This document shows positions 1 through 6,407 of a stretch of DNA of 6,407 bases, piece after piece. Within the stretch, counting starts at the first letter, position 1. The number at the start of each line of letters is the position of its first letter. The translations under genes and the position numbers were made by a program. Origin of the DNA: Candidatus Sumerlaeota bacterium (lineage in GTDB: Bacteria; Sumerlaeota; Sumerlaeia; JAFGJS01); assembly GCA_016928995.1 (NCBI GenBank), contig JAFGJS010000091.1, positions 1 through 6,407 of the forward strand. Reading direction: 5' to 3'. The notes beneath the pieces were generated by a model. That model ran no database searches. It was not told the origin of the DNA and saw only the letters and a program-made list of their open reading frames with translations.

Positions 1-110
1 CCTCGCTTGAAAAGGAATGGGAGTCATTTCTCGTCTCCAGATGTACTTTCGCATAACTTTGGGAGCTCCGTCAAGATGCGCCCTTCGGCGGATACACTGC
101 GAAAAATTAG

Positions 111-139
111 TTTACAATATCATCAGAGCGTTGTAAATT
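111..139 (+). promoter_or_regulatory. Putative sigma70-type promoter of clpX
   Basis: TTTACA at 111-116 (5 of 6 matches to the -35 consensus) is followed by exactly 17 bp and then TAAATT at 134-139 (4 of 6 matches to the -10 consensus). Transcription would start near 146, leaving a leader of about 30 nt before the clpX ATG at 176. The surrounding DNA (about 104-152) is AT-rich compared with the coding DNA. It suggests that clpX can be transcribed on its own. The call rests only on consensus matching. Confidence 0.4.
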
Positions 140-175
140 AATCTTATTATTTGAGCTAAACAGCAGGAGAGTGAC

Positions 176-1435
176 ATGCGGTTAAAATGCTCGTTTTGCG
201 GACGGGACCAGAACCAGGTCAAAACCTTGTTCCGCGGATTGCCCCAGAAAGAGTCCGGCGGCAGTGTCTACATCTGTGATGAATGCATCGCGCAGTGCCA
301 TGAACGTCTACGCCGCGACAAGATCACCCAGGCCGAAGAGACCACGATGCAGGGAATCAAAACCCTGCCCACGCCCGAGGATATCTTCAAGGTTCTCGAC
401 GAATACGTCATCTCCCAGCAGCATGCCAAAAAGACCCTCTCCGTTGCGGTCTATAACCACTATAAACGCTTGCTTTACAACCATGACGCCGATGACGTGG
501 AACTGCAGAAGAGTAATATTCTGCTGATTGGACCCACTGGTTCGGGCAAGACGCTGCTGGCCCAGACGCTGGCGCGTATCCTGAACGTCCCCTTCGCTAT
601 CGCCGACGCCACCACGTTGACCCAGGCCGGATACGTCGGCGAGGACGTGGAGAACATCCTCCTGCGCCTCCTGCAAAACGCCAACGGCGACAAGGAACTG
701 GCCCAGACCGGCATCGTCTATATCGACGAAATCGACAAGATCGGCAAGACCACGCAAAACGTCTCTATCACCCGCGATGTCAGCGGCGAGGGCGTGCAGC
801 AGGCCCTGCTGAAGATTCTCGAAGGCACTATCGCCAACGTGCCGCCGGCCGGAGGACGCAAGCATCCGCATCAGGAATACATCCCCATCGACACGACCAA
901 TATTCTCTTCATCTGCGGCGGCGCATTCAACGGACTGCCCGAAATCATCGAGCGCCGCATCACGAAGAAAGTCATGGGCTTCGGCGCCGACGTGAAAAGC
1001 AAACACGATAAACATGTCGGCGAGCTTCTTCGCCATGTCGTATACGAAGACCTGCTGAAGTTCGGGTTGATTCCCGAGTTTATCGGCCGGCTTCCCGTTG
1101 TCAGCACGCTTGAGGAACTCGCCGAGGAAGACCTGGTCACAATCCTGCATGAACCGCGCAACGCGATCGTCAAGCAATACCAGAAAATGTTCGAACTGGA
1201 AGACGTCGAACTGGAATTGACCGAGAACGCCCTGCGCTCCGTGGCCCGCAAAGCGATCAAGCAGGAGACCGGCGCCCGCGGATTGCGCAGCATTCTCGAG
1301 AGCGTCATGCTCGAGATTCAATTCAGCCTGCCCAACCGCGCCAAGGAAGTCGCGCTGGTGCGCATCGATGATAATGTGATCGACAAGGGCGAAGAGCCGG
1401 AATACATGCCGCGTGAAGAGCAGGAATCAGCCTAA
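176..1435 (+). CDS. clpX: ATP-dependent Clp protease ATP-binding subunit ClpX
   Basis: ClpX is a hexameric cytoplasmic AAA+ unfoldase that recognises tagged or damaged proteins, unfolds them with ATP and threads them into the ClpP peptidase. At 419 aa it has the usual full length. Seen in the sequence: an N-terminal zinc-binding domain with C5, C8, C34 and C37; Walker A GPTGSGKT at 119-126; pore-1 loop GYVGED at 152-157; Walker B IVYIDEID at 180-187; pore-2 loop around DVSGEGVQ at 201-208; the RKH loop at 228-230; arginine-finger region IPEFIGR at 299-305; and sensor-2 GARGLRS at 366-372. The ClpP-docking tripeptide, IGF in E. coli, is MGF here (267-269), a conservative change. The ATG is supported by AGGAGAG at 165-171 and by the zinc domain starting at once. 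A promoter lies just upstream. No clpP is visible, but only 175 bp of upstream DNA is shown. Identification is secure. Confidence 0.98.
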
Positions 1436-1446
1436 GCTTCGCGATA

Positions 1447-1481
1447 CTGCGCCGCCCCCGCGCAGAAAAAAACCGATTTTT
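1447..1481 (+). terminator. Stem-loop after clpX, weak terminator candidate
   Basis: A perfect 6-bp GC-rich stem, CTGCGC at 1447-1452 and GCGCAG at 1460-1465, closes a C-rich 7-nt loop 11 bp after the clpX stop. It is followed by seven A residues (1466-1472), then CCGA and five T residues (1477-1481). The T tract does not directly follow the GC stem, so this is not a textbook intrinsic terminator. The A and T runs can pair and would extend the structure. It may mark the end of the clpX message or merely stabilise its 3' end. Confidence 0.25.
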
Positions 1482-1551
1482 CGATTGCGTTGATGTTGAG
1501 CTTCATCCATCAATCTCTACGAGCAATAATCCGTTTTGATTAATCGGCTCA

Positions 1552-2913
1552 ATGCCCACTCGGCCAAACGGTTTGATGCATATGAACATGCTTCACATGG
1601 CGAAAACATTGCGTGAACCGCGCGTCTTCGCTTTTCTGGCGATTTTTTTGCTCACCTTCATTCTTCACGCCTTGAGCCGCAACGCCACGCCGTTTGATTC
1701 TCGCTGGTCCACATATGTCGCCATGAGCATCCTGCGCGAGGGAAATACCAATCTGGACGAATATGCCCCTGTGTTGCAGGCGAATGATTACTACATGCTG
1801 CGAGAGATCGACGGTCATTATTATAACTTTTACCCCATCGGCGTCCCTTTGCTTGCCGCACCATTTTTAGCCGCAGGCGCTCCGTTCTTCTCATGGATCA
1901 TCGGCCAGCCGCTGCATCAATTCATGCTTGAACGCAATATGGGCCGGATTGAAGTTTGCATCGCCTCGTTTTTCGTCGCGCTGAACGCCGCGCTTTTTTG
2001 CGCGATCGGTCTGGCGTCCGGTCTGCGTCTGCGCGCGGCGATACTGCTGGCTTGCATCTTCGCCTTCGCCACGCCCGCCTGGTCCACGGCCAGCCGCGCG
2101 CTTTGGCAGCACGGTCCGTCGATGCTGATGTTCACACTGGCCCTCTGGCTGATCCAAATCAGCGAACGGAATTCGCGCCTGGCCGCGCTGTCTGCGTTGC
2201 CGCTCGCTTATGCCTGCGTGATCCGCCCAACGAATCTGCTGGCGCTTGCGCTGTTGGGGGGATGTGTTTTCTGGCGTCATCGCAAGCAGTTTCCGCTCTG
2301 GATCGTTTTGACTGTGGCGCTGCTGGCCCCGTTTGCATGGTATAATTTTTCGGTGTATGGCTCGTTGCTTTCCGGCTATACGCTGGATCTGTATGACGCG
2401 AAACGAATGCCGTTTTGGATGGGTTTCACCGGCACATTGTTCAGCCCTTCGCGCGGGCTCTTCATCTGGTCGCCAATTCTGCTGACGGCTTTCTGGGGCG
2501 GATGGCTGCTTTGGCGCGACAAACGATGGACCGCGCTGGAGACCGCGTTGGCCGCGTTGCTTGCGGCGCAGTGGATCGTCATCAGCGCATATCCCGTCTG
2601 GTGGGGAGGGCATTCCATCGGACCGCGATATTGCTGCGAAATGACGCCCATTCTGATTTATTTCATGATCCCCGTCTTGCGCCGTTACGGCTTCGCCGGC
2701 TGGATTGAACTCCGGCTGCATGCCGTGATCTATGCCGCGCTGATTCTCGCGCTGGGCTTGAGCGTTTTCACTCACGCGCGAGGCGCCAACGCCGGAGGAT
2801 GCGTGGCATGGAATGTCACTCCCGTCAATATCGCGAGCGAGATATCACGCCTTTGGGATTGGTCCGATCCGCAATTCCTCCGCGCCATGCCGGCCAAGCC
2901 TTCCAATCGCTAG
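1552..2913 (+). CDS. Multi-membrane GT-C-like glycosyltransferase, hypothetical
   Basis: This 453-aa, strongly hydrophobic protein has roughly ten membrane segments, the first at about 24-42 and the last at about 389-407. The design suggests a GT-C enzyme, a class that moves sugars from polyprenyl-phosphate donors on the outer face of the inner membrane; this is inference from topology and motifs. Seen: an acidic first outer loop with FDSRW at 48-52 and LDEYAP at 68-73; YNFYPIGVPLLAAPF at 91-105; LFSPSRGLFIWSPILL at 296-311; and WWGGHSIGPRY at 350-360. I recognise the SPSRGL and WWGG-S-GPR blocks as recurring in uncharacterised membrane proteins often labelled glycosyltransferase family 39-like, but cannot name a substrate. 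No strong ribosome binding site precedes the ATG, and in-frame ATGs at 1576, 1582, 1588 and 1597 are alternatives that would keep the first membrane segment. It follows clpX by 116 bp and faces the next membrane-protein gene tail to tail. Confidence 0.72.
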   Translation: MPTRPNGLMHMNMLHMAKTLREPRVFAFLAIFLLTFILHALSRNATPFDSRWSTYVAMSILREGNTNLDEYAPVLQANDYYMLREIDGHYYNFYPIGVPLLAAPFLAAGAPFFSWIIGQPLHQFMLERNMGRIEVCIASFFVALNAALFCAIGLASGLRLRAAILLACIFAFATPAWSTASRALWQHGPSMLMFTLALWLIQISERNSRLAALSALPLAYACVIRPTNLLALALLGGCVFWRHRKQFPLWIVLTVALLAPFAWYNFSVYGSLLSGYTLDLYDAKRMPFWMGFTGTLFSPSRGLFIWSPILLTAFWGGWLLWRDKRWTALETALAALLAAQWIVISAYPVWWGGHSIGPRYCCEMTPILIYFMIPVLRRYGFAGWIELRLHAVIYAALILALGLSVFTHARGANAGGCVAWNVTPVNIASEISRLWDWSDPQFLRAMPAKPSNR

Positions 2914-2920
2914 CGCAGCG

Positions 2921-4195
2921 TTAAATCAGCATGATCACGCACCAACACAGCCAATTGATGCTCGTCAACAGCGAGATCGTCATCAGCGCGCGCCGCTCCG
3001 CGGCCATCAACGCCAACAGCGAACCGAGCAAGTACGCTTCCGTCGCCGAGCGCAGATAGGCGCTTGGATCGTTCCATACGTAGTCCATCAAGCAGACATT
3101 CAGCGTCAAATACGCCAGCGCCGGCAAAGCCCAAAGCGACAGCCGCCCTCGAATATTCCACATCGCGATCCATGCCGTGAAGCCGAAAAACAGCGTCATC
3201 GCCGCCAGTTGGATGATGTTGATCGCGCAGAACAGGCCTTGCTTCGAAAAGAAACGCTCCGCTTGCAGCAGATCGTGCACGGAATTGGACAGACTTGCGT
3301 ATATTCCGCTGAAGGGAAAAGAAAGAATATAGAATCCGACAAAAGGGATGGTTTCATTCTCGCCGGCGGCTCCGTGAACGGACATCGAACCGCTCGCATG
3401 GATGACTGCGACATGGCTGACCATGGCGCCGAGCACTGGAATCGCGGCCAGGTAAAAGGGGAAATCCGCTCCTGTCGATTGTTTATCCGTTATAGGGATC
3501 ATTCGGCCTGCGATCTTTTGCGCGCACCAAATTCCGGGCAACAATGCCGCTGTCTCACGCGTGAACACTGCGCAGAGCAACAGCGCGCTACTCGTTTTAT
3601 ATCGCTTCAGGCAAAAAAAATAGCAGCCGCCCAGAAGAAAAGCAGCGGCGACGGCTTCCGTCAAATCGCGGGAAAGACTGATCAAGAGGCCTGGATATAA
3701 CGACAGACCGGCAGCCCACAATGGCGGATATTGATGCGACTCCAGCAGTCGGCTAAACAGCAAGGCGATGATGCCGACCGCTGTAATATCCACCAATATC
3801 ATCATGGCAGGAACGGCGCGTTCGTGTCCAAGAGACGCGCAATACACGATGAGGGGATACAACCAGCGTTGCGAGCGGTAGCATATATCATCCATCCGGA
3901 TGCCATGCGCAATCGGCGCAAAGTTAAACGGCGCAAGCGACATCCGATAATAAAACTGGCCATCATAGCCGGCAAAGTCGTTGTAGACATGCAGATTCGC
4001 CGGAGTCGAGGCACGGTCGCAAAACTGATCGCCGGCAATGATGAATTTGGAAAAATCGCCGCCGAACCGGATGGCCAGCCCGGCGATGAACATCGCCCAC
4101 GCCAGAATAGGGATCAACCATGCCAGCCGTTTTTGTCGCGATGGAGTTCGCGCGGGCGTTTCAGTTTGCTGCAAGTGATGATCGCTTGCGCTCAT
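2921..4195 (-). CDS. Multi-membrane GT-C-like protein, hypothetical
   Basis: This 424-aa protein has a short polar, basic N-terminus (1-23), a first membrane segment at about 25-43 and roughly ten to twelve hydrophobic segments in all, so it should lie in the inner membrane. Seen: a first outer loop with NDFAGYDGQFYYRMSLAPF (72-90), RWLYPLIVY (110-118), SRDLTEAVAAAFLLGG (175-190), FTRETAALLPG (211-221), and the late block DYVWNDPSAYLRSATEAYLL (371-390). The YDGQFYY loop with its acidic residue, the R-x-x-YPL block and the TRET motif recall GT-C-type cell-surface glycan transferases; the donor and acceptor cannot be read from sequence. It starts 36 bp after the pdxJ stop on the same strand, so the two are probably co-transcribed, although the ATG has only a poor ribosome binding site. 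A run of eight T residues in the sense strand (3620-3613) encodes part of C-Y-F-F-C. It shares no obvious motif with the convergent membrane protein. Confidence 0.72.
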   Translation of the reverse strand: MSASDHHLQQTETPARTPSRQKRLAWLIPILAWAMFIAGLAIRFGGDFSKFIIAGDQFCDRASTPANLHVYNDFAGYDGQFYYRMSLAPFNFAPIAHGIRMDDICYRSQRWLYPLIVYCASLGHERAVPAMMILVDITAVGIIALLFSRLLESHQYPPLWAAGLSLYPGLLISLSRDLTEAVAAAFLLGGCYFFCLKRYKTSSALLLCAVFTRETAALLPGIWCAQKIAGRMIPITDKQSTGADFPFYLAAIPVLGAMVSHVAVIHASGSMSVHGAAGENETIPFVGFYILSFPFSGIYASLSNSVHDLLQAERFFSKQGLFCAINIIQLAAMTLFFGFTAWIAMWNIRGRLSLWALPALAYLTLNVCLMDYVWNDPSAYLRSATEAYLLGSLLALMAAERRALMTISLLTSINWLCWCVIMLI

Positions 4196-4231
4196 GTCAG
4201 CATCCGCTTTAGGGGCGAAAGGATCGAATGA

Positions 4232-4969
4232 CTAGGCCAGTATTTGCTGATAGCAATGGATTGTTTCGGCCATGCCCAGTTCGAGCGCTTCCGCTGTCAG
4301 CGCATGGCCGATCGAGACTTCCTGCAGCCCCGGCATGCGCTCTTTGAAGAATGTGAGATTTTCCAGATTCAAATCATGACCGGCGTTCAGCCCCAACCCC
4401 AGGTGAACGGCTTCTTCGGCGCAGGCTGTATAGCGCGCCATGACCTCGTCCCGTTGCGGGGTGTGATAAGCCATCGCATACGGCCCCGTATACAGTTCCG
4501 CGCGGTCCGCGCCCGCCTCTTTCGCCAGTTTCAAGACCTTCGGATCGTCCGCGTCCATGAACAGGCTCACCCGGATGCCGGCCCGCTTCAGTTCCGCAAT
4601 GATTGGCTCAACCCACTCGCCGTATTGCGCCAGGTCCCAGCCGTGATCCGAGGTCAACTGATGCGGATTGTCCGGCACAAGCGTGCACTGGTCCGGCCGC
4701 ACGCTCAGCACGAGTTTCATGAATTCCGGCTGCGGATTCCCCTCGATATTGAACTCCGCGCGTCCCGGCGCCTCGTCGCGAATCAGCTGCGCCAGCTCCG
4801 GCACGTCGCTGCGCCGGATATGCCGCTCATCCGGCCGCGGATGCACCGTCAGTCCGTCCGATCCCGCCTGCAGGCAGATCCGCGCGAACTTCAGCACATT
4901 GGGAATGCCGATCTCGCGGCTGTTGCGCAGCAGGGCGATCCGATTCAGATTTGTGCTCAAGCGAACCAT
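4232..4969 (-). CDS. pdxJ: Pyridoxine 5'-phosphate synthase PdxJ
   Basis: PdxJ condenses 1-deoxy-D-xylulose 5-phosphate with 3-amino-2-oxopropyl phosphate to give pyridoxine 5'-phosphate, the last ring-forming step of the DXP-dependent vitamin B6 pathway, in the cytoplasm. The 245-aa length is normal for this TIM-barrel enzyme. Seen: N-terminal STNLNRIALLRNSR (5-18), the phosphate and active-site strand TVHPRPDERHIRR (41-53, with H43, R45 and H50), FNIEGNP (73-79, E76), VSLFMDAD (134-141), ELYTGPYA (158-165), LNAGHDL (194-200, H198) and VSIGHAL (218-224, G221-H222). The first motif reads N-x-N-R where E. coli PdxJ has N-x-D-H; I recall the Bacteroidetes form as N-x-N-K, so this looks like that subtype, not a damaged enzyme. 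The ATG at 4969 gives the family N-terminus; the ribosome binding site is weak. A repeat element ends about 16 bp upstream of the start. The next gene downstream encodes a membrane protein. Confidence 0.96.
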   Translation of the reverse strand: MVRLSTNLNRIALLRNSREIGIPNVLKFARICLQAGSDGLTVHPRPDERHIRRSDVPELAQLIRDEAPGRAEFNIEGNPQPEFMKLVLSVRPDQCTLVPDNPHQLTSDHGWDLAQYGEWVEPIIAELKRAGIRVSLFMDADDPKVLKLAKEAGADRAELYTGPYAMAYHTPQRDEVMARYTACAEEAVHLGLGLNAGHDLNLENLTFFKERMPGLQEVSIGHALTAEALELGMAETIHCYQQILA

Positions 4970-4984
4970 ACGATTTATCCGTCA

Positions 4985-5117
4985 GGGAAATGATTCAGCA
5001 TATTCTCAAAGTAAAGCTACGGACGGTTGTAGCGCCAGCGTCTCGCTGGCAAGACAAGCCGCCGGGACGGCGGCGCTACGATTTCACCCGGCCCTTGAGA
5101 ATATCCTGGGAAATGAT
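4985..5117. mobile_element. MITE-like element with inverted repeats and flanking direct repeat
   Basis: The outer layer is a 10-bp exact direct repeat, GGGAAATGAT, at 4985-4994 and 5108-5117. Just inside lie inverted arms of 14 bp with one mismatch: CAGCATATTCTCAA at 4996-5009 against TTGAGAATATCCTG at 5095-5108. One extra base (T4995) separates repeat and arm on the left, and the two features share one G on the right, so the exact boundary is uncertain by a base or two. The core holds a twin-hairpin repeat (5029-5079). Inverted arms inside a direct repeat are what a transposed non-autonomous element with its target-site duplication would leave. There is no coding capacity. It lies between rpmA and pdxJ, about 16 bp from the pdxJ start, and so within the pdxJ leader. 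Confidence 0.5.
5029..5079. repeat. REP-doublet (REPIN-like) twin hairpin
   Basis: GTAGCGCC at 5029-5036 and GGCGCTAC at 5072-5079 form the outer inverted arms. Inside are two hairpins: GCCAGCG / CGCTGGC (5034-5040 and 5044-5050, loop TCT) and GCCGCCG / CGGCGGC (5058-5064 and 5068-5074, loop GGA), separated by AAGACAA. Read on its own strand, each half begins with GTAG. REP sequences mobilised by REP-associated tyrosine transposases (RAYTs) are known to carry a GTAG or GTGG head before an imperfect palindrome and to occur as inverted doublets. The two halves differ at two stem pairs and both changes are compensated. Similar GC-rich GTAGCGCC palindromes occur widely between genes of uncultured PVC-like bacteria, as far as I recall. 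Confidence 0.7.
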
Positions 5118-5129
5118 CCCTTATTGTGA

Positions 5130-5164
5130 AACGAGCCGCCGGCGCTTCATGGCCGCGGCTCGTT
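5130..5164 (-). terminator. Stem-loop after rpmA, probable end of the rplU-rpmA transcript
   Basis: AACGAGCCGC at 5130-5139 and GCGGCTCGTT at 5155-5164 make a perfect 10-bp stem; an inner GGC/GCC pairing (5141-5143 with 5152-5154) shortens the loop. It begins 52 bp after the rpmA stop. In the - strand transcript the stem is followed by only three U residues and then CACAAUAA, so the U tract is poor. The stem is strong and well placed, but it could also be a partly symmetric barrier to 3' exonucleases rather than a true intrinsic terminator. Confidence 0.45.
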
Positions 5165-5216
5165 CATATACTGTCTGATAGATTCAATCAATGGAAATTT
5201 GAAAACGGGAGGGCGT

Positions 5217-5480
5217 TTACGCCTCGACCGGAATCACGCGGATGCGTTTGCGCAAGCCGCGCCCTTGCTGATAATACTCCACCCGGCCGTCGATCTTCGC
5301 GAACAAGGTGTTGTCCTTGCCGATGCCGACGTTCTCGCCCGGATGATATATCGTGCCGCACTGCCGCACGATGATCGAGCCGCCCGTCACCACTTCGCCG
5401 CCATAAACTTTGATCCCGCGATACTGCGGGTTGCTGTCGCGACCGTTCCTTGTGCTGCCAACGCCTTTTTTATGCGCCAT
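5217..5480 (-). CDS. rpmA: 50S ribosomal protein L27
   Basis: L27 is a small basic protein of the large ribosomal subunit whose N-terminal tail reaches the peptidyl-transferase centre and contacts the P-site tRNA. The 87-aa length is standard. Seen: [16 protein letters not shown] at 1-16 is the hallmark N-terminus, followed by [15 protein letters not shown] (34-48), [12 protein letters not shown] (50-61) and the basic C-terminal [10 protein letters not shown] (73-82). There is no cleavable N-terminal extension of the Firmicutes type; the protein starts directly at M-A-H-K-K. The usual RQRGT reads RQCGT here (Cys41), a point difference that leaves the rest intact. The start is fixed by a strong AAGGAG (5493-5488) 7 nt upstream. 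Only 21 bp separate it from the rplU stop, so the pair is one operon. The obgE gene that often follows is absent; a stem-loop, a repeat and pdxJ come next. Confidence 0.97.
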
Positions 5481-5501
5481 TGCTCCGCTCCTTCCGGCAA
5501 A

Positions 5502-5813
5502 TCACTTTGAAATCTTATTAATGCGCAGTTCAGTGAACTGCTGACGATGGCCTTGCGTCTTGGCGAAGCCATTGCGCCGTGTGAATTTGTGAATGCGAAT
5601 CTTGGGTCCCTTGCCATGCTGCACGATTTCCGCCTCGACCTTCGCGCCAGCCACTGTCGGACGCCCGATGTGCAACTGCTCGCCGTCATGCAGGCTCAGC
5701 ACGTCATCCAGCGTCACGGCGTCGCCCGTCTCTCCGGAGAGCAACTCCACCTTCACATTGTCGCCTTCCGCGACTTTGTATTGCTTTCCGCCTGTGCGGA
5801 TAATCGCGTACAT
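5502..5813 (-). CDS. rplU: 50S ribosomal protein L21
   Basis: L21 binds 23S rRNA and takes part in early assembly of the large subunit. From the Met at 5813 the protein has 103 aa, the normal size, and begins [18 protein letters not shown], the family's conserved N-terminus. The conserved C-terminal rRNA-binding block [20 protein letters not shown] is at about 76-95. An in-frame ATG three codons earlier (5822, adding MPT) also has acceptable spacing to the AAGGAAGG purine run, so the true start is either 5813 or 5822; I prefer 5813 because family members usually start at MYA. A longer open frame back to 5852 lacks family similarity. It is the first gene of the rplU-rpmA operon, and a promoter and an intrinsic terminator lie immediately upstream. 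Confidence 0.97.
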
Positions 5814-5824
5814 CGTTGGCATTT

Positions 5825-5832
5825 CCTTCCTT
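5825..5832 (-). promoter_or_regulatory. rplU ribosome binding site with two usable starts
   Basis: On the - strand AAGGAAGG runs from 5832 to 5825. Its first AGGA lies 5 nt before the ATG at 5822 and its second 10 nt before the ATG at 5813. Spacing therefore does not settle the start; family length favours 5813. Confidence 0.6.
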
Positions 5833-5853
5833 AGTGTTCTGACAAATTCCACG

Positions 5854-5896
5854 AAAAAAACAAACCGCCCCGCCGGATATTCCCGGCAAAGAGCGG
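5854..5896 (-). terminator. Intrinsic terminator upstream of rplU (attenuator or insulator)
   Basis: Read on the - strand, an arm from 5896 to 5883 (CCGCTCTTTGCCGG) pairs with 5876-5865 (CCGGCGGGGCGG) around the loop GAATAT. This gives 12 pairs, two of them G-U, with a two-base TT bulge. It is followed at once by TTTGTTTTTTT (5864-5854). This is a canonical Rho-independent terminator that can act only on - strand transcripts, and it lies about 40 nt before the rplU start. It either ends transcription arriving from further upstream or attenuates the rplU-rpmA message. The promoter at 5899-5927 would start RNA at about 5894-5890, within the first arm. Confidence 0.65.
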
Positions 5897-5898
5897 CT

Positions 5899-5927
5899 AT
5901 TCAAATGAACGCCCCCGGCAGTGTCAA
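5899..5927 (-). promoter_or_regulatory. Sigma70-type promoter of the rplU-rpmA operon
   Basis: On the - strand a perfect TTGACA (5927-5922) is followed by exactly 17 bp and TTGAAT (5904-5899, 4 of 6 matches to TATAAT). AT-rich DNA just upstream (about 5936-5962) could act as an UP element, fitting a strongly expressed ribosomal-protein operon. Transcription would start near 5892, giving a leader of about 78 nt. It overlaps the upstream edge of the terminator hairpin. Confidence 0.6.
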
Positions 5928-5978
5928 GTCCGAAATACGCATTTTTCAGCATTATTTACGGATGAGAACCTCTAAAAA

Positions 5979-6073
5979 TTCAACGCAGAGCGCAGAGGCG
6001 CAAAGAACCGAGTCTGTATCTACTGTAAATACAATGATTGAAATCTTTGTGTGCCCTGTGCCTTCATGTGAAA
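5979..6073. repeat. CGCAGAG-type dispersed intergenic repeat, imperfect inverted repeat
   Basis: The left part (5979-6006) holds two CGCAGAG units within AACGCAGAGCGCAGAGGCGC followed by AAAGA. The right part (6044-6070) holds TCTTTGTGTGCCCTGTGCCT followed by TCATGTG. The reverse complement of the right part aligns imperfectly with the left (shared elements include AAAGA and GCA-AG-GGC). An 8-bp inverted pair, ATTGAAAT at 6037-6044 and ATTTCAAT at 6074-6081, brackets the right part. I recognise this wording as a repeat type common between genes in many environmental bacterial genomes. No coding potential is apparent. Confidence 0.5.
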
Positions 6074-6080
6074 ATTTCAA

Positions 6081-6228
6081 TTAGTAGCTGATGTTACGCA
6101 TCTGGATTGGAAATGAGCCAAAAGGTAGGGGCGATTGTCCTCAATCGCCCGTCAAACCAGCGAAATTAAGCGGGCGATTGAGGACAATCGCCCCTACCAG
6201 AACTAGTGTGCGTAACATCAGTTAGTAG
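6081..6228. mobile_element. MITE-like element with 13-bp terminal inverted repeats and 7-bp direct repeat
   Basis: Perfect 13-bp inverted repeats, CTGATGTTACGCA at 6088-6100 and TGCGTAACATCAG at 6209-6221, are directly abutted on both outer sides by the 7-bp direct repeat TTAGTAG (6081-6087 and 6222-6228). This is the exact layout of a transposed element with its target-site duplication; the element itself is 134 bp with no coding capacity. Its core is a twin-hairpin repeat (6124-6198). It would need a transposase encoded elsewhere. It lies in the non-coding stretch upstream of rplU. Confidence 0.6.
6124..6198. repeat. REP-doublet (REPIN-like) repeat with a perfect 28-bp inverted repeat
   Basis: The 28-nt arm at 6124-6151 and its exact reverse complement at 6171-6198 are separated by 19 nt. 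Each arm is itself a hairpin: GGGCGATTG (6129-6137), loop TCCT, CAATCGCCC (6142-6150) on the left; the same stem with loop AGGA at 6172-6193 on the right. Read on its own strand, each half begins GGTAGGGGCG, so GTAG again heads the palindrome, as in RAYT-linked REP sequences. It can fold as one long cruciform or as two small hairpins. It could act as a two-way transcription barrier, though neither side has a U tract. Confidence 0.75.
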
Positions 6229-6258
6229 AGGTTGCCTTCATTCTGTGACGGATCTCAA

Positions 6259-6282
6259 GTGGGAGGGGCTATCCTCAGCCCC
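6259..6282 (+). repeat. Single REP-like hairpin with GTGG head
   Basis: GTGG at 6259-6262 is followed by a palindrome, GGGGCT (6265-6270), loop ATCCTC, AGCCCC (6277-6282). It shares the GGGGC stem start and the TCCTCA loop region with each half of the 6124-6198 doublet, so it looks like a relative. I see no inverted partner before the window ends, so it is either a singlet or half of a doublet lost or changed beyond recognition. Confidence 0.5.
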
Positions 6283-6352
6283 GAATATTCGCTTTTCCAA
6301 TCACCGTTCATAATTTAGAGCTGTCCAGCCCCCTTTTCGAGGTCCATTTGAA

Positions 6353-6407
6353 ATGAGAGAATTTCTACTTGTTTCTTGTTTTCGTCTCCTTGCAAACTGC
6401 ATTGGCC
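6353..6407 (+). CDS. Possible start of an unidentified protein, cut by the window edge
   Basis: An ATG at 6353 opens a frame without stop to the last base, giving MREFLLVSCFRLLANCIG. GAGGT at 6339-6343 lies 9 nt upstream, an acceptable ribosome binding site. The short basic start and hydrophobic run could be the beginning of a signal peptide or membrane anchor, but only 18 residues are visible and an open frame this short is common by chance. No function can be assigned. Confidence 0.25.
   Translation, partial: MREFLLVSCFRLLANCIG

Follow-up and report, generated by a model that had tools for sequence, protein, structure and literature searches.

A probable IS701_2-type MITE with a REP-pair core in a Candidatus Sumerlaeota genome, and its relatives across phyla

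What kind of element has the ends of a conventional transposon on its outside and a pair of REP-like hairpins within, and which of the two parts has carried the other? The question arises near the end of a 6,407-nucleotide stretch of a Candidatus Sumerlaeota genome (contig JAFGJS010000091.1, positions 1 to 6,407; 'the window'). Reading inwards from either flank, we see an exact direct repeat, TTAGTAG, at 6081–6087 and 6222–6228, immediately inside which lie perfect 13-bp inverted repeats (CTGATGTTACGCA, 6088–6100, + strand; TGCGTAACATCAG, 6209–6221, − strand) that delimit a 134-bp element, here termed E1—an arrangement described in an earlier, sequence-only reading and exact in every part. The core (6101–6208) begins with a left subterminal segment leading from the E1 end to the first REP unit (6101–6124), which other core classes lack, and closes with a right subterminal segment (6198–6208). 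Between them are a REP-like unit, GTAGGGGCGATTGTCCTCAATCGCCC, with a GTAG head plus hairpin (6125–6150, + strand) and its inverted copy (6172–6197, − strand); the two GTAGGGGCGATTGTCCTCAATCGCCC units stand head-to-head as a perfect 28-bp inverted repeat (6124–6151/6171–6198), thus forming a 'REPIN-like' doublet. E1 is short and non-coding, with no ORF of its own. The folding energy of its 134-bp strand is −51.6 kcal/mol, whereas dinucleotide shuffles give −14.5 (z = −14.1). The 'GTAG-headed twin hairpin' proposed for the core is right as to its two inverted units, with one refinement: as single-stranded DNA the core folds preferentially into a single long stem, although each unit can also form a hairpin by itself.

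The left flank of E1 (5960–6087) belongs to an older dispersed repeat, which is matched at 25 further places in this genome. This repeat, E4 (5966–6236; core CGCAGAGGCGCAAAG..CTTTGTG..CTGTGC), holds E1 near its right end, and the joined flanks of E1 align continuously with four other copies (L296, L298, L299 and L300) across the insertion point; these empty sites are paralogous, not orthologous. Because the E4 paralogues run unbroken across the site, E1 must have inserted into a copy of E4, duplicating TTAGTAG.

The ends of E1 are far from unique to this copy. In the window's genome (4.55 Mb in 161 contigs, 92% complete; genome-wide counts are pattern searches) there are 31 exact matches to CTGATGTTACGCA and none to a reversed control, which, together with the folding score, rules out a chance inverted repeat. 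These ends usually frame elements of 130–200 bp with 7-bp duplications; the duplication is perfect in 13 of the 18 intact elements and carries one or two mismatches in the other five, although duplications inside one genome share ancestry and are not independent. Among 81 genomes (this one and 80 relatives) such a population is found here alone, two others having one single E1-end match each. We then see a very different picture at greater distance: a scan of 84,980 species genomes, requiring two perfect E1 ends 105–135 bp apart, returned at least 112 stretches with paired ends, in Thiotrichales, Methylococcaceae, Latescibacterota, Chloroflexi, Elusimicrobia, Bacteroidetes, Campylobacteraceae and others. 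With relatives nearly empty and distant phyla full of E1 ends, a local or clade-specific element is ruled out. Among the matches listed are 111 distinct E1 elements from 41 genomes further to the window's own, with a perfect 7-bp duplication in 54 of 109 and a palindromic target consensus, TTANTAA, which the window's TTAGTAG fits; since the scan fixed both the spacing and perfect ends, these frequencies are not unbiased. Whole-genome searches of ten E1-bearing genomes gave between 11 and 739 exact ends per genome, counts to be read with the proviso that short repeats can be misplaced in draft assemblies and MAGs.

Pleasingly, the same ends also occur on complete insertion sequences. In the Bacteroidetes genome SZAS-63, two exact E1 ends lie 1,109 bp apart (outer ends), with TTAAATAA duplicated outside them, and enclose a single gene for a 350-aa DDE transposase that scores 317 bits against NCBIfam NF049921 (IS701_2; cut-off 250). 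Relatives of this transposase, ∼48% identical, lie within E1 ends in Parabeggiatoa HSG14 and Methylumidiphilus (autonomous elements sharing E1 ends: genomes G090, G084 and G088), and transposase remnants adjoin E1 ends in three more genomes; a candidate 1.9-kb insertion sequence in Elusimicrobia (L176) is in fact two neighbouring MITEs. A Piscirickettsia plasmid insertion sequence has CTCACCTTACGCAC ends and a 7-bp duplication, TTCATAA; ISAba11 has TAGGACTTACGCA ends and a duplication of 5 bp. Taken together, the two sets of ends identify TTACGCA as the conserved inner part. E1 thus resembles the IS701 family (NF049921 group, related to ISAba11) in its ends and duplication and shares TTACGCA with the ISAba11 type, differing from ISAba11 itself in end sequence and in the length of the duplication. 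Protein and profile searches of the window's genome (92% complete, 161 contigs) found no IS701_2 transposase gene, nor do the longer loci around its lone E1 ends contain one; a partner transposase in the same genome is usual for a MITE without being strictly defining, since such a gene can be lost. As the ends are those of an IS701_2 insertion sequence and its genome yields no such transposase, we class E1 as a MITE: judged by sequence, its ends derive from an insertion sequence with an IS701_2-family DDE transposase, by which it is predicted to be mobilised. The 'non-autonomous transposon signature' first read from the window is thereby borne out by dispersed copies, empty paralogous sites and an autonomous partner elsewhere, and the search that the sequence-only reading had proposed, for the ends genome-wide and for an insertion sequence sharing them, has given both, the latter in other genomes and not in its own.

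What, then, of the core? Its two inverted, GTAG-headed hairpin units are like the REP doublets (REPINs) associated with RAYT (TnpA-REP) proteins, a likeness extended by the nine Y1-transposase (RAYT-type) genes of the window's genome, two of which are flanked by the REPs of composites such as this: L227 by the class-A REP, the commonest E1 core in this genome, and L225 by the GTAGCGCC REP. A third, L226, is flanked by a GTGGNACGGGCG REP; among the nine we found none firmly paired with the window's own unit, GTAGGGGCGATTG. The GTAGCGCC REP is also the core of a second composite in the window, E3 (4996–5108), which is not part of E1 and in which CAGNATATTCTCAA ends, as terminal inverted repeats, surround a GTAGCGCC doublet; two further genome copies (L258, L272) have the same ends and core. 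The claim that two unrelated elements of the window share one layering is supported by these copies, with the direct repeat around E3 visible in the window copy only. E1 is unlike REPINs in that DDE-transposon ends surround the doublet and a target-site duplication lies outside them. A duplication of this kind would not be expected from the movement of REPs.

Taken the other way round, the REP pair might itself have done the moving, having inserted as a dimer into a target palindrome that we now read as 13-bp ends with a direct repeat. There is precedent, in that section 7 of Di Nocera et al. (2013; PMC3733652) records, for three species (A. variabilis, T. roseum and H. neapolitanus), dimers of REPs 'inserted within long palindromic sequences', a matter left uninvestigated there: these have the same layering as E1 with other end sequences and, in that section, are read as target palindromes, with no duplications, transposase or exchange between ends described. 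The RAYT genes of the window's genome would also fit this account. Set against it, the E1 ends are found on autonomous insertion sequences complete with transposase and frame unrelated or non-palindromic cores; the duplications vary by copy while the ends stay constant; and the uninterrupted paralogous sites lack both ends and core. For E1, the autonomous insertion sequences and empty sites lead us to reject insertion of a REP dimer into a target palindrome as highly improbable; for palindromes other than E1 the account may hold.

The cores themselves are interchangeable. Inside the E1 ends of the window's genome there are at least four core classes, with different subterminal segments: a GGAGTGCGCAGGCCATGCCTGCGC doublet (class A) in 12 of the 18 intact elements, a TTTTGACAGGAT..ATCCTGTC type in three, a GACCCCGAATTCATTCGGGG type in two and the window's core in one. 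Class-A units occupy ∼53 places in this genome; the head-to-head doublets, 20 in number, lie between two E1 ends in 16 cases, beside a single end in three and apart from any in one, and 15 of the 31 solitary units are without any E1 end. One class-A element (L203, C57:823–1025) has its REP broken by an unrelated insert of ∼50 bp. The window's unit, GTAGGGGCGATTG, gives 33 pattern matches at up to three mismatches (control: 0), a count in which the strands of a palindrome may be scored twice; elsewhere it occurs as single hairpins or in elements with CTATAGC..TCTCGAAAG ends (e.g. L036, L037, L039 and L056). These four loci represent a separate end family, CTATAGC..TCTCGAAAG..TTTTTGCG, carrying GTAGGGGCGATTG plus an ACGGTTG unit; the TA at the tips of these ends suggests a Tc1/mariner-like (IS630) target. 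In the sequence-only reading, a core that occurs widely without these ends, and ends found nowhere else, were to mark the window's copy as a coincidence; the core does occur without them, but the ends recur widely, both on autonomous insertion sequences and across dozens of genomes.

Over all genomes, and among the matches listed, 129 E1 cores cluster into 45 families, 34 of which fold better than shuffles (z below −2) and 11 of which do not. To the question whether every copy carries the window's hairpin core, the answer is that other cores are present too; with about a quarter of the families non-palindromic, hairpin cargo is common, not required. Sequence resembling the cores but lacking E1 ends is present within just a few kilobases around E1 loci in about 12 of the 41 genomes. 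The class proposed from the window, combining REP-like hairpins with transposon ends, does exist, and widely, in many phyla. It may be asked whether selection keeps strong palindromes in E1, for example by aiding end structure, transcription termination or transcript shielding; were palindromes to help E1 in this way, their enrichment would be functional, beyond what the abundance of REPs supplies. The 34 well-folding families would accord with this, the 11 others would not, and since few small mobile DNAs are commoner than palindromic repeats, chance nesting could look alike; we hold such selection to be doubtful, though compatible with the explanation preferred below, to which it would add a cause.

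How a palindrome comes to lie within E1 ends can be followed most closely in Candidatus Parabeggiatoa HSG14 (G084), the densest of the genomes counted, with 739 exact E1 ends in 6.6 Mb and 137 near-copies of one E1 arm. Elements with this arm differ in their inserts. At L313, L319, L336 and L337, a GTAG..CTAC hairpin takes the place of eight bases present at L320 and L321; at L333, E1 contains a MITE that is flanked by TA and has a palindromic core of its own. A 319-bp composite, in which a second MITE lies in E1, is found at both L314 and L339 with one mismatch between the copies, in unrelated flanks and with separate duplications (TCAATAA and TTACATAA). Comparison of these loci indicates that in HSG14 a palindromic element entered E1 and that the two thereafter moved together as one transposing element; nested insertion, the other possibility raised for the window, is therefore seen here together with composite transposition, and both proposals hold and belong together. 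Second MITEs are nested in several E1 copies across the HSG14 loci examined (L310–L339). Where target meets end, the letters are TAACTGA, a sequence recorded as tandem repeats in Beggiatoaceae (PMC4679880); a link to those repeats was discarded, tandem copies of TAACTGA being absent from the E1 loci examined.

Our preferred reading, to which we assign a probability of roughly 0.88, is that E1 is a MITE moved in trans by an IS701_2 transposase, with a REP-pair core acquired by nesting. E1 would be a non-autonomous DNA transposon whose 13-bp ends come from an IS701_2-group DDE transposon, placed by that transposase into a TTANTAA-like site within E4 with duplication of 7 bp. The core is an inverted pair of GTAG-headed REP units, a mobile repeat of a different kind, for which the usual mover is RAYT, a Y1 tyrosine transposase. 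In all likelihood the composite began when such a pair entered a small E1 element, after which the DDE transposase would have copied ends and cargo jointly, the original E1 interior being largely lost. This supposes that the E1 copy in the window came about by the nesting route of the Parabeggiatoa elements, that a REP pair and not single units entered E1, and that the transposase, now not found in the genome, was formerly present or was brought in on mobile DNA. We found no E1 relative with the subterminal arms of the window element and no REP pair, as its core occurs in E1 ends only once.

Conversely, E1 ends may have come to flank pre-existing REP pairs, each core family being made at once, whether from two solo ends or through aberrant gap repair after excision that copied a nearby palindrome. 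The differing subterminal segments of the core classes leave no shared ancestral interior visible in the window's genome, as such capture would have it, and so large a number of core families, spread over many phyla, requires a frequent process. In Parabeggiatoa, however, elements with the same arms are found in both states, some bearing a hairpin or second MITE and others lacking it, as nesting predicts, and the TA-flanked MITE within E1 is an ordinary insertion. Capture is the weaker account and, as a general one, unlikely; for individual core families it is possible.

MITEs, REPINs, RAYTs and IS701 are all known kinds of element. We found no mention of CTGATGTTACGCA in the literature searched, where the one paper that brings together IS701, MITEs and target site duplication mentions each of them once. 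Undescribed there, it appears, is the case of one family of DDE ends whose many REP-like cores are spread over several phyla and for which transposase, duplications and nesting can all be seen. Mobile or repeated elements carried in another are on record in a Porphyromonas gingivalis MITE containing a minisatellite (PMC4596501) and a Thiomargarita MITE within a group I intron (PMC4853749); these resemble E1 in this respect and differ in being confined to single genomes, with unrelated ends and no REP units reported. The dispersal of REP-like palindromes, and the presence of look-alikes in unrelated genomes, call for explanation, dissemination by RAYT being called poorly understood in PMC8266576. 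A standard cut-and-paste transposon family that carries such palindromes, with duplications as proof of movement, offers a second, testable route for their spread and an explanation for the earlier records of REP dimers inside palindromes; its 13-bp tag allows the exchange to be surveyed in thousands of genomes. More tentatively still, and with the odds somewhat against it, the palindromic repeats of many phyla might spread largely as cargo of small DDE-end elements, passed between end families by nesting, such that 'REP families' and 'MITE families' would form one exchanging pool; the palindromes may also benefit their carrier.

Two further observations concern the immediate surroundings of E1. 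E4 is a third dispersed composite repeat, with ends GAGAACCTCTAA and TTAAAGGTTG, and its copies at L299, L300 and L302 seemingly have 6-bp CCNAAA duplications, as read by eye in the alignment. Just downstream of E1, a lone hairpin, GGGGCTATCCTCAGCCCC (6260–6285), is possibly another dispersed unit.
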